Virus record (IMG/VR): IMGVR_UViG_3300035670_008481
Coordinates: 1 to 24,353 of that record
DNA length: 24,353 bases
DNA from: a virus
Reading direction: 5' to 3' (one strand)
In this document: positions 285-3,974 of the stretch, in pieces
Layout of the letters: every line of letters begins with the position of its first letter
Numbering within the stretch: position 1 is the first letter of the stretch
Made by a program: the position numbers and the translations under genes
Notes under the pieces: generated by a model
Told to the model about the DNA's origin: nothing
Databases searched by the model: none
What the model saw: only the letters and a program-made list of their open reading frames with translations

Positions 285-313
285 TTGCGGCGGCCGATGC
301 TATAGCGTATACT
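285..313 (+). promoter_or_regulatory. Sigma-70-like promoter for the rightward operon
   Basis: TTGCGG (285-290) and TATACT (308-313) are separated by exactly 17 bases. The predicted transcript would start near 320, about 48 bases before the first ATG at 368. It is the best sigma-70 match I found in the window and sits directly downstream of the inverted repeat at 220-271. Confidence 0.55.
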
Positions 314-367
314 TGTGTCGTCGCGGCGGAACCCGCGGCCGGCTCTCAACTCGAAAGGTACGGAAAA

Positions 368-748
368 ATGGACCCCAACACTACATACGAAAACTTGCTT
401 CACGGTATCGCGGTCGATGATACGGAGGCCGTGTCGGAAGCCGCGGAAAACTTGTCGGCGTGGATCGACCGCGGCGGCTTTCTCCCCGATGAACTGGAGT
501 CTATCGCGGTTCATCTTTTCAGTCTGGCGAGAGACTACGGAAGCGAAGCCGACGGCATCGACTTCCGATTCTATCTTTTGGAGTCTGGCGACTTGCGGCC
601 GGCTTTTGGTGATGCTTCATACGATCCAGACCATAGGGGCTATTGCGGGGCCGGCTCCGTTGCTGCCGATTCAACGCTCGACGATTGCAGGAAAGCCGTA
701 GCGGCTTGCTTGAATGATGCCGTCGAGTTCTATTTTTGCGGACGATAG
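368..748 (+). CDS. Hypothetical acidic phage protein, 126 aa
   Basis: First gene of the rightward operon. The start at 368 is chosen because the ATG follows the ribosome-site sequence CTCGAAAGGTACGG, which recurs before the next genes; longer upstream readings lack a ribosome site. The protein is acidic and looks helical at the N-terminus (residues about 5-45). The C-terminal part has an aromatic stretch and cysteines near FYFCGR. I recognise no catalytic motif or family. No membrane segment or signal peptide is visible. Probably a small early phage protein of unknown function. Confidence 0.75.
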   Translation: MDPNTTYENLLHGIAVDDTEAVSEAAENLSAWIDRGGFLPDELESIAVHLFSLARDYGSEADGIDFRFYLLESGDLRPAFGDASYDPDHRGYCGAGSVAADSTLDDCRKAVAACLNDAVEFYFCGR

Positions 749-757
749 CAGACGGGC

Positions 758-825
758 CAACACAACCGGAAGCCGCGGCCGGTTCAACTCTCGCGGCTTT
801 TTGCTTCAACTCGAAAGGTACGAAA
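758..825 (+). promoter_or_regulatory. Leader copy A: competing stem-loops and terminator-like stem
   Basis: This intergenic leader has an 8-base stem AAGCCGCG (770-777)/CGCGGCTT (792-799) running into a T-tract (798-802), which is the layout of an intrinsic terminator. A second stem, AACCGG (764-769)/CCGGTT (779-784), encloses the left arm of the first in its loop, so the two compete or form a pseudoknot. The ribosome site GAAAGGT follows before the ATG at 826. About 29 bases at the 5' end are identical to leader copy B at 1294. Confidence 0.6.
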
Positions 826-1284
826 ATGATGGCAACGACAGTAGAAAAGCAAGTATTGTGCGATATGCTCCGCAAGTTTATTGCGCAGCGTAGCGGTATG
901 GACTACCGGAACTATGGAAGCCGTGAAAGTTTTATGGAGGACTACCGGCCGATACTTCAACACGGCCGCGACGCGCGGCGGTTGCTGGAGTATGTCGAAA
1001 AACGCGACGGCATAACGGCCGACGACATTATCAGGGCTACCAGCGGGAATGGTCGGCTGGAGTTTTGCAAACTTGGCGACGGCTTGCGGCTTGACTATTG
1101 CACGGGCCAGTATTTTCCGACGGAATACCGGGCCGCGGCGTGCTCGATGCTTGCTGGCCTAGTCTGGCGATACCTGGTAGACGGATATTCCGACTTGCCG
1201 AATACGGGGGAGCAAGCCGCCGCAATTCGGCAACGTGCGCGGCGGCTGTTTGGTCGCGGCGTGGCTTCCCGCTGGTTTGCATAG
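826..1284 (+). CDS. Conserved phage-type hypothetical protein, 152 aa
   Basis: The start at 826 is the first of two adjacent ATGs (826, 829) after GAAAGGTACGAAA. Residues about 18-45 include the stretch QRSGMDYRNYGSRESFMEDY followed by HGRDARRLL. From memory this resembles a protein found in many tailed phages, where a short NYGD-like motif is followed by a region about arrays of Arg and Asp. No enzymatic function is known to me. The rest is helical, with cysteines at scattered positions and no clear metal site. It is the second gene of the rightward operon, behind a terminator-like leader, so its expression may be attenuated relative to the first. Confidence 0.8.
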   Translation: MMATTVEKQVLCDMLRKFIAQRSGMDYRNYGSRESFMEDYRPILQHGRDARRLLEYVEKRDGITADDIIRATSGNGRLEFCKLGDGLRLDYCTGQYFPTEYRAAACSMLAGLVWRYLVDGYSDLPNTGEQAAAIRQRARRLFGRGVASRWFA

Positions 1285-1293
1285 GCAACGCGG

Positions 1294-1357
1294 CAACACA
1301 ACCGGAAGCCGCGGCCGGTTCAATCCCGCGGGTTTTGCTTCAACTTGAAAGGTACGA
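1294..1357 (+). promoter_or_regulatory. Leader copy B: second attenuator-like leader
   Basis: The 5' half repeats leader copy A. The stem AACCGG (1300-1305)/CCGGTT (1315-1320) is preserved exactly. The terminator-like stem is rebuilt from a different sequence: CCGCGG (1309-1314) pairs with CCGCGG (1326-1331) and runs into TTTT at 1333-1336. A GAAAGGT ribosome site follows before the ATG at 1358. The structure is kept although the right arm differs from copy A, which argues that the structure matters. Confidence 0.6.
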
Positions 1358-1570
1358 ATGATGGACGGTTCAACTTTTGCGGCTGGCACATTTTGCGAAC
1401 AATGCGGAGCGGCTTGTGTTTCCGGCGGTTTCGCCGCGGGGTACGCCGTAACGAATGACAACCGCCGCATATGCTACGGTTGCGCAAACGAACGGGAGAA
1501 AGCCACCTTTGCAAAGTCGGGAGTTTACTTCGCATATATGTCGGCTCCCGGTTCAACTCTTGAAAGGTAG
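1358..1570 (+). CDS. Small zinc-finger-like protein, 70 aa
   Basis: Adjacent ATGs at 1358 and 1361 follow GAAAGGTACGA. The sequence has CEQCGAAC near residues 13-20 and CYGC about 25 residues later. Two CxxC pairs spaced this way form a treble-clef or zinc-ribbon-like metal site, usually used for nucleic-acid or protein binding. The last residues (GSTLER) are encoded by a copy of the GGTTCAACT/GAAAGG leader of the next gene, and the TAG stop lies inside that ribosome site. This gene and the next are therefore probably translationally coupled. Function is unknown beyond probable metal binding. Confidence 0.7.
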   Translation: MMDGSTFAAGTFCEQCGAACVSGGFAAGYAVTNDNRRICYGCANEREKATFAKSGVYFAYMSAPGSTLER

Positions 1571-1574
1571 AAAA

Positions 1575-2174
1575 ATGACAACCGCGGAATACAAAAGCCG
1601 CGCGGCCGAAGCCGGCCTAGACTGGCCGGCCGTGCGGGCGATATATGACGACGTGCGCGCACAAGAGAAAGCCGCGATTGAGCGAACGATTGAGAGCCGC
1701 CGTGTAGCCCTGCAAGCCTTAGGTTTCGGCAACGGCGGTCAGTTCCGGCTTGCGAAAGGTCTAGGCCGCGGAGCTGACGCCGACTCAATACGGCATTTTG
1801 ATTGCGTTGCACGGGAACTATCGGCAACCGAAATACCGGAACTAGGCGCCGACGATCCATCGGCAGCACTGTGGGAACTGGTAACGGCTCCGGCTCCCGT
1901 TATGCCGACGCAAGCCGAAACAATGGAAAAGGCTATCGGAATTGCAATCGAGCAAGCCCCGCCGGCCCCGGTATCGCCCGACGACTTGCTGCCCCTGCCG
2001 CTTGCTGCAAGCCAGGCAGACATAACGGAGCAATGGCTGCGGATTCTCGTAAAGTCTGGGAAAGTTCGTGGCTTTCAAGTCGGCCGGTTTTGGCTGGTCG
2101 ACCGCCGGAGTATTGCAAATTTTCAACGGCACCCTACGGCCGGCCGGCCGCGGCTGGAGCCGGTGCCGTTCTAA
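1575..2174 (+). CDS. Putative DNA-binding protein with excisionase-like C-terminal domain, 199 aa
   Basis: The ATG at 1575 follows TTGAAAGGTAGAAAA, the same ribosome-site family as the preceding genes, and lies 4 bases after the upstream stop. Residues about 1-60 are helical and charged. A Pro/Ala-rich linker follows (around 110-150). Residues about 155-190 contain TEQWLRILVKSGKVRGFQVG, then RFWLVDRRSIANF. This is the helix-turn-helix plus wing pattern of MerR/excisionase-like DNA-binding domains. It could be an excisionase, a transcriptional regulator of this operon or a replication accessory factor. The N-terminal domain is not recognised. Confidence 0.7.
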   Translation: MTTAEYKSRAAEAGLDWPAVRAIYDDVRAQEKAAIERTIESRRVALQALGFGNGGQFRLAKGLGRGADADSIRHFDCVARELSATEIPELGADDPSAALWELVTAPAPVMPTQAETMEKAIGIAIEQAPPAPVSPDDLLPLPLAASQADITEQWLRILVKSGKVRGFQVGRFWLVDRRSIANFQRHPTAGRPRLEPVPF

Positions 2175-2193
2175 AACAGACTCGACAACACAA

Positions 2194-2223
2194 CACGAAC
2201 GGAGAGCCGTACCCCAGTTCGTG
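2194..2223 (+). other. Intergenic hairpin
   Basis: CACGAAC (2194-2200) pairs with GTTCGTG (2217-2223), a 7-base stem with a 16-base loop, in the gap between the genes ending at 2174 and starting at 2268. No T-tract follows, so it is not a classic terminator. It may be an RNA-processing or stabilising element. The segment just before it (from about 2185) partly resembles the 5' end of leader copies A and B. Confidence 0.4.
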
Positions 2224-2267
2224 GAAACCTATATCCCGTGCGGCGAAACGATAGAGGAAAAATTGAA

Positions 2268-2483: not shown

Positions 2484-2514
2484 GGTAAATAGACTACGCG
2501 ACACGACTATGGCA

Positions 2515-2574
2515 GGGGCCGCGGTGGCCCCGAACGTGGAAACGATAGAAACCCCCGAGAGAGGAAACGAGACG
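2515..2574 (+). promoter_or_regulatory. Second leader type, copy 1: GC hairpin plus GAGAGGA ribosome site
   Basis: GGGGCC (2515-2520), loop GCGGT and GGCCCC (2526-2531) form a tight 6-base hairpin, followed by GAACGTGGAAAC and then the ribosome site GAGAGGAAACGA before the ATG at 2575. The hairpin and GAACGTGGAAAC recur at 3281-3310 before another gene. The shared layout suggests a common post-transcriptional control. Confidence 0.5.
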
Positions 2575-2907: not shown

Positions 2908-2999
2908 CCCCCGCCCCGGCGCGTTGCCGGAGCGGCGAAACCTTGAGACGATATCACAACCAACCCCCGAGCGGGGGACCCAAACGAGAGGAACGAACG

Positions 3000-3230
3000 A
3001 TGCTTACCGAGGAACAGATGATCCGGCTTGATGGCACCGGCTACGCGAACGGCGACACGTTCAGCGGCGAGGCCGAGGTTCGGAAATATTTCACGGTGGA
3101 GAACATGATCCATATGTTCGGCAAACCTGACGATCCTATGACGCCGGAGGTGATCGCGGAATGGCAGGAGGAACTCAATCAGATGGCCGACGCAGTCATC
3201 GAAAACGGATGGCACATGGAAGGCCGATGA
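3000..3230 (+). CDS. Hypothetical acidic protein, 76 aa
   Basis: The ATG at 3000 follows ACGAGAGGAACGAACG, matching the ribosome-site layout of neighbouring genes. A hairpin CCCCC/GGGGG (2964-2977) sits upstream in the leader. The sequence is acidic and Met-rich (FTVENMIHMFGK, then EWQEELNQMADAVIENG) and predicted mostly helical. It has no Cys cluster, membrane segment or recognised motif. Small phage protein of unknown function. Confidence 0.7.
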   Translation: MLTEEQMIRLDGTGYANGDTFSGEAEVRKYFTVENMIHMFGKPDDPMTPEVIAEWQEELNQMADAVIENGWHMEGR

Positions 3231-3280
3231 CGACCCGCCCCTGACCCCCGGCCGGCGAAAACGGCGCGGGGCGATGGGGC

Positions 3281-3339
3281 GGGCCGCGGTGGCCCCCGGA
3301 ACGTGGAAACAAGAAACCCTAGAGCGAGAGGAAATGACG
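3281..3339 (+). promoter_or_regulatory. Second leader type, copy 2
   Basis: GGGCC (3281-3285), loop GCGGT and GGCCC (3291-3295) repeat the hairpin of 2515-2531, and GGAACGTGGAAAC follows at 3298-3310. A GAGAGGA ribosome site (3326-3332) precedes the ATG at 3340 by 7 bases. It is a near-duplicate of the leader at 2515. The two bracket unrelated genes, so the leader, not the genes, was copied or conserved. Confidence 0.5.
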
Positions 3340-3705
3340 ATGAATACAAAAAAGCACACCCCCGGCCCATGGCGTTGGGCATATCGGCAAATCGACCACG
3401 GCGGTGGGGTAGTAAAAACAGCCGCCGTCATGCTTGAGACGCAAGGCTGCGGCGGCGACGAGAGCTACCCGCACTCAACAATCATGGCCGTGCGGGACGA
3501 TTGGCTCGGCTGGATGAACAACGACGTCTCCGCTGGCGATCGTGCCGTTATAGCCGCTGCGCCAGAACTCCTTGACGCGCTGCGCGCTTGTGCCGACACG
3601 CTGCGGATGCAGAAGATTTACCACAAAGGGAAATCCCCATGGTGCCAGCGTGACGATGATGCACTCGCCGCCGCCGAGTCTGCAATAGAAAAGACGATGA
3701 AATAA
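3340..3705 (+). CDS. HTPGPW-motif phage hypothetical protein, 121 aa
   Basis: Two in-frame ATGs exist (3334, 3340). The second is preferred because the spacing from GAGAGGA then matches the sister genes. The N-terminus carries HTPGPWRW, and residues about 68-85 read DRAVIAAAPELLDALRACAD. From memory, the pair HTPGPW ... IAAAPELLEAL marks a widespread small protein of tailed phages and prophages with unknown function. The C-terminus is a helix with acidic residues. Nothing catalytic is seen. Confidence 0.85.
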   Translation: MNTKKHTPGPWRWAYRQIDHGGGVVKTAAVMLETQGCGGDESYPHSTIMAVRDDWLGWMNNDVSAGDRAVIAAAPELLDALRACADTLRMQKIYHKGKSPWCQRDDDALAAAESAIEKTMK

Positions 3706-3782
3706 GATACGAAACCATCGCCCCGGCGGCCCGCCGCCACCCCGGAGCGTCGAAACCCAGTGCGGCGAAATGAGAGGAATCT

Positions 3783-3974
3783 ATGAACCGACTGAATCCC
3801 TACGAATCCGGCTGGCTCTCGATGCTGGTCGCCCGCGGCCTGGCGACGGAGGCCGAGGCCCGCGAGGCCCAGCACCGCGTGGCCCGAGCCGCCATCGACG
3901 AGATGGAGGCCCGGAGAGCGGCGAAACGAGCACTGAAAAGGCGGCTCAAGAAACGCCGCCCACACGACGATTGA
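3783..3974 (+). CDS. Small Arg-rich helical protein, 63 aa
   Basis: The ATG at 3783 follows GAGAGGAATCT. The first 25 residues are a neutral helix (NPYESGWLSMLVARG), followed by a long charged helix rich in Ala, Glu and Arg. It ends in a strongly basic tail (KRALKRRLKKRRPHDD). The tail could bind nucleic acid, but this is composition only. No family recognised. Confidence 0.6.
   Translation: MNRLNPYESGWLSMLVARGLATEAEAREAQHRVARAAIDEMEARRAAKRALKRRLKKRRPHDD

Follow-up and report, generated by a model that had tools for sequence, protein, structure and literature searches.

Short sequences repeated immediately before phage gene starts have been described in the Cluster K mycobacteriophages, where the SAS precedes 13-19 genes and about half of its copies also carry an inverted repeat (ESAS) and SigA-like promoter hexamers (PMC3203893, PMC11373665). 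In bacteria, 5'-terminal stem-loops stabilise the ompA and papA mRNAs, according to two studies listed in PMC3997798 (Emory 1992; Bricker 1999). The DNA analysed here, referred to as the window, is a complete IMG/VR record of 24,353 nt, and by analogy of layout the nearest precedent for the leaders of its early region (Table 1) is the SAS/ESAS system. As in Cluster K, a short repeated block lies right before the start codons of many small phage genes of different families, and a subset of the blocks has an inverted repeat upstream, with sigma-70/SigA-like promoters in the extended form. However, the SAS reads GGGATAGGAGCCC, whereas the blocks aligned in this analysis, compared by eye with the published consensus, read GAAAGGTACG and AGAGGAAACGCGACG; GGGATAGGAGCCC together with the 17-bp inverted repeat consensus of the ESAS was not found here, where the stems are variable. 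In the ESAS, the inverted repeat follows a subcluster consensus and shares a motif of 46-47 bp with the promoter, whereas the hairpin described here begins at about +1 and has no fixed sequence. Since the sequences differ, the window leaders were not filed as a member of this system. If the reading proposed below holds, the lineage-wide stem-loop leader at predicted transcript starts would provide a second, independent case beside SAS/ESAS on the role of inverted repeats at phage gene starts. The first-pass annotation of the window had regarded a repeated leader before successive small genes as unusual for phages, a view that the Cluster K elements contradict.

Table 1. Early-region features of the window.
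Feature	Position	Strand	Remarks
Early promoter P1, TTGCGG-17-TATACT	285-313	+	Predicted transcript start ~320; read from sequence
5'-terminal stem-loop of gene 1 mRNA, UCGCGG(CGGAAC)CCGCGG	321-338	+	
Start-associated block CAACTCGAAAGGTACGGAA, copy 1	347-365	+	1 mismatch against copy 2; 0 expected by chance
Gene 1 (126 aa)	368-748	+	67% identical protein in L183
Leader A	758-825	+	S1, S2, U5 and start-associated block 807-825; read from sequence, folding
Gene 2 (151-152 aa)	826-1284	+	60 relatives in other viral contigs
Leader B	1294-1357	+	S1, S2, U4 and start-associated block 1341-1359; read from sequence, folding
Gene 3 (69-70 aa)	1358-1570	+	L142 and L183 relatives, each behind a different leader
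Start-associated block only, CGGTTCAACTCTTGAAAGGTAG	1549-1570	+	In the last part of gene 3; precedes gene 4
Gene 4 (199 aa)	1575-2174	+	HTH_17/excisionase-like C-terminus, weak; 63.5% identical in L183
Further leader, AACACAA, CACGAAC/GTTCGTG hairpin, GGAAAC	2187-2267	+	
Second-type leader, GGGGCC/GGCCCC hairpin, CGTGGAAAC, AGAGGAAACGAGACG	2508-2574	+	Promoter-like TTGACT-17-TAGACT at 2467-2495
Second-type leader, two hairpins	2908-2999	+	
Second-type leader, GGGCC/GGCCC hairpin, CGTGGAAAC	3270-3339	+	
Second-type leader, CGTCGAAAC, CGGCGAAAT	3715-3782	+	92% identical to L099:3064-3136

Direct searches with the leader sequences in viral contigs and GTDB genomes gave no matches or chance-like ones (four in viral contigs, which were inspected, and four in GTDB genomes), and direct searches with the proteins of genes 1, 3 and 4 gave no viral relatives. 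A search with the Prim-Pol protein, on the other hand, returned six relatives with 77-92% identity. In one of these (G001), the right end carries a leftward putative small terminase gene, named from the resemblance of its sequence to the P27-like family, followed by a promoter and the early genes. An alignment of this terminase protein led to 80 further loci, among them L183, which encodes relatives of gene 1, gene 3 (34%) and gene 4 and contains the single leader A homologue that the analysis revealed. None of the comparisons gave a close match to an isolated phage.

Promoters placed like P1 occur in G001 (TTGACA-17-TACAAT) and L183 (TTGACG-17-TAGATT), and the stem-loop of gene 1 has counterparts with the same position and stem, CCGCGG(CGGAAA)CCGCGG in L183 and L169 and CCGCGG(CCGGAAAA)CCGCGG in G001. 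Upstream of this promoter, positions 48-184 of the window hold a palindromic repeat array (GTATTTCG-CAAT-CGAAATAC), possibly an operator or packaging-site array, which is likewise present in L183 and L168, where it separates the terminase gene from the early promoter. An inverted repeat at 220-271 (AAACACAATAT...AATATTGTGTTT), just 5' of P1, is perhaps a bidirectional terminator; G001 has a near copy, and L183 has a different sequence in which the pairing is retained. The single sub-threshold Rfam match near these leaders, to the family c4-a1b1 at 307-357 (19.4 bits against a gathering threshold of 46.7), is most likely due to chance.

Leaders A and B had been annotated as two look-alike leaders sharing AACCGG/CCGGTT and a second stem, and both the positions and the stems are correct. 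The first stem (S1) lies at 764-769/779-784 in A and, in identical sequence, at 1300-1305/1315-1320 in B. The second (S2) lies at 770-777/792-799 in A (AAGCCGCG/CGCGGCTT), lengthened by G-U pairs to 768-778/791-801, and at 1309-1314/1326-1331 in B (CCGCGG/CCGCGG). Runs of five and four U follow at 798-802 and 1333-1336, respectively, in each case directly 3' of the G+C stem, the arrangement expected of an intrinsic terminator. The right arm of S2 in B was also correctly reported to differ and still pair: it has two substitutions and pairs one register inward, with 6 bp instead of 8. As the left arm is the same in both copies, this difference is not compensatory covariation. The claim that the stems are unable to form together holds in so far as S1 and S2 cross, but they share no bases, giving the topology of an H-type pseudoknot in which the two stems are not strictly exclusive. 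Of the reduced relatives of the leader proposed elsewhere, the one before gene 1 is supported (346-366, a 95% match to the SD block), and the one before gene 4 consists of the CGGTTCAACTCTTGAAAGG block only, within the last part of gene 3. The duplication of A and B is certain, with 89% identity over ~77 nt (E 1.7e-23), well beyond chance, and the block CAACTCGAAAGGTACGAAA occurs three times against 0.00 expected. The structure of A and B taken alone is not beyond chance, as neither folds better than its shuffles (z of -0.47 for A and +0.48 for B), and Watson-Crick stems that cross, with a minimum of 6 bp, turn up in 1.3-1.6% of shuffled sequences as well as in 1.3% of the 68-nt windows of this genome.

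The core of leader A is identical to that of L183 at 27 of 29 aligned positions, compared with 72% identity for gene 1, so the leader core appears to be under constraint. The L183 leader retains CCGG...CCGCGG...CCGG...CCGCGG, and the order CCGG...CCGCGG...CCGG...(C/U)CGCGG is common to all three leaders. Six pairs of S2 are kept there, S1 is reduced to its four inner pairs by loss of the outer A-U pairs, and the U-run is missing. The gene behind the L183 leader differs from that behind leader A, and the gene-3 relative of L183 has another, unrelated-looking leader; the leader therefore keeps its position and is not attached to the gene that it would control.

The duplicated, structured leader that had been recognised in the window proves to be a habit of the whole lineage. 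In G001, G004 and G006, many small early genes are preceded by a GC stem-loop of varying sequence, CGTGGAAAC or CGGCGAAAC, the SD block AGAGGAAACGCGACG and ATG. In the alignment of the window with its relatives, the second-type leader copies at 2517-2572, 2909-3003, 3218-3350 and 3715-3786 are conserved and the intervening genes often are not. Hairpins of at least 6 bp were present in 71 of 115 early leaders, compared with 27.4 (sd 4.2) in shuffles, in a G+C-rich sequence that makes hairpins common and among loci of which many are interrelated, so that the counts are not independent. Promoter-like TTGAC...TANNNT sites numbered 28 in early sense regions and 2 in control sequences, and 20 of the 28 are followed by a hairpin with 6 bp or more whose start lies 4-13 nt past the -10 element, at about +1 of the predicted transcript (3.8% in shuffles). 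Stems of different sequence keep their pairing, such as ACCGCGG/CCGCGGT, TGCGGCCGG/CCGGCCGCG, TCGGGG/CCCCGA, CGGCCGA/TTGGCCG and GCGGGGCG/CGCTCCGC, the last with a G-U, and G-U pairs in varying stems point to the RNA rather than the DNA level. MAFFT misplaced the arms when aligning these hairpins, so no formal covariation score is claimed and pairing is argued from position and shuffles. The S2 of A, B and the L183 homologue, CCGCGG(CCGGUUCAA...)(C/U)CGCGG, matches the stem of the first gene in G001, L183, L169 and the window, and the best interpretation of S2 is therefore this stem-loop, copied to sites between genes.

On balance, leaders A and B are probably copies of a repeated start-of-gene stem-loop cassette that would act on the RNA, in protection or insulation and in translation start. 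Such a cassette would combine a GC stem-loop with a conserved linker, both short, and an SD block directly before the start codon, and would be used throughout the early region of an uncultured, terminase-bearing phage lineage. The stem-loop of A and B would be S2 (CCGCGG ... C/UCGCGG), the stem that the window and its relatives share at the predicted start of the gene 1 transcript, and S1 would exist because the CCGG in the S2 loop can also pair with a CCGG just upstream. Behind a promoter, it is at about +1 of the mRNA that the stem-loop would stand, and for later genes with no clear promoter it would stand between two genes. The hairpin may shield the 5' end, or one produced by processing, against decay, and may separate the ribosome-binding region of each gene from upstream structure, with the outcome that every exchangeable small gene would become its own stable, translatable unit. 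The ompA and papA stem-loops offer a mechanistic model by analogy, given that in both cases a hairpin a few bases from the transcript start, here a predicted one, is followed by single-stranded sequence and an SD; unlike those single-gene cases, the element described here recurs throughout the early region of a phage and also lies between genes, and stabilisation here is putative. If this reading holds, a whole phage group starts its early mRNAs with a hairpin of free sequence, reused before small, often-exchanged genes, which would account for the insertion of new genes with immediate expression. Against the cassette, neither A nor B has a clear promoter of its own, no good candidate having been found just upstream of them by eye or in scans, and the S1 4-mer conserved in L183 is not accounted for. 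The putative homology of A and B to the second-type leaders draws on architecture and short shared words.

The main rival for A and B, the two copies with U-runs, is that they are constitutive partial intrinsic terminators, in which S2 and the U-run end a fraction of transcripts and produce a downward step after each gene without a switch. Both lie just past gene stops, S2 is the dominant fold and the U-run follows the stem directly; A and B would have to protect or insulate despite these runs if they act as a cassette. However, the L183 homologue keeps S2 and loses the U-run, a stem followed by TTTT occurs in only 2 of the 115 lineage leaders (a set from which leader A was dropped by the gene picker), and the loops are long (11-14 nt); a terminator scan allowing loops of 3-8 nt left A and B unlisted. 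We regard partial termination as unlikely, if worth serious attention. The attenuator or switch logic originally proposed for the two leaders, with S1 as anti-terminator, S2 as terminator and a choice made by ligand, protein or ribosome position, fares worst and is the least supported reading, very improbable in our estimation. A G+C stem with a U-run and a crossing alternative stem in both copies does resemble an attenuator, and L183 could likewise form the four inner pairs of S1 and six of S2. In the folding comparison of the copies, however, S2 wins outright and is predicted to dominate at equilibrium, with a mean pair probability of 0.92 in A and 0.98 in B (0.56 in the L183 homologue) against 0.00-0.01 for S1 in all three, and the stems of A differ in stability (-7.1 kcal/mol for S1, -14.8 for S2), although S1 could form first during transcription. 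The covariation expected of such a switch did not appear, as the single homologous leader available, L183, has no compensatory changes and shows the losses in S1 and the U-run given above. Crossing stems in the lineage leaders are only slightly above chance (8 of 115, compared with 3.65, sd 1.8, in shuffles). No sensor was found: positions 748-826 contain no visible leader peptide starting with ATG, and within the window no match to an Rfam family reached the gathering threshold, hence no known riboswitch or cis-regulatory RNA. The independence of the leader from the gene behind it also argues against regulated attenuation.

Gene 32 of phage T4 has an autoregulatory leader pseudoknot, and A and B could likewise be H-type pseudoknots, with S1 and S2 formed together, that bind a phage protein for translation control. 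Like the T4 leader, they would place a putative pseudoknot ahead of an unstructured stretch and an SD, and, once S2 is stripped of its weak A-U pairs, the geometry appears workable in A, B and L183 (4-6 bp for S1, 2-3 nt, 6 bp for S2, 0-1 nt, 5-7 nt), the four words of the core being retained in all three. However, there is no sequence relation to the T4 leader and no known binding protein, the variation is too slight for an informative pairing test, the arms are self-complementary words frequent in this genome, and the arrangement is not clearly seen in other lineage leaders; we consider a pseudoknot quite improbable. A function of the repeats as DNA, either as palindromic operators immediately 3' of promoters or as recombination boundaries for the exchange of small genes, is improbable as well. 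Several promoter-proximal hairpins are perfect palindromes (L141, L142 and L145, for instance GCGGCCGGACGTCCGGCCGC, with the L143 and L149 leaders listed alongside), which makes a DNA-binding role possible, and genes between conserved leaders are replaced among relatives. Nevertheless, the stems are too varied for one repressor, G-C gives way to G-U in L159, L191, L194 and A, a change that preserves pairing in RNA but not symmetry in DNA, and exchange at the leaders can follow merely from their repetition. An intermediate possibility, in which structure-selected stem-loop leaders define an early region of exchangeable units and A and B have evolved into a two-helix element (pseudoknot or switching) read by a phage factor to set the expression of successive genes, strikes us as similarly doubtful.

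The genes behind the leaders also gave several minor observations. The N-terminus of the gene 1 product (residues 1-42) matches phrog_865, labelled HNH endonuclease, a label that looks doubtful because no HNH signature was recognised by eye. The first early gene of G001 and G002 (L109:4135-5148 and L111:17971-18996; 337 aa, 70% identical) is missing from the window, which has gene 1 instead. Leader A is absent before the 60 relatives of gene 2 in other viral contigs. Just 5' of a gene 2 relative, L054:3920-3975 (+) matches the type II hammerhead at 34.5 bits (gathering threshold 37; E 9.6e-6) and is likely, as judged from this match, to be a type II hammerhead ribozyme; a similar CTGATGAG...CGAAAC sequence occurs in L050, which has no Rfam match, and in L053 and L048.
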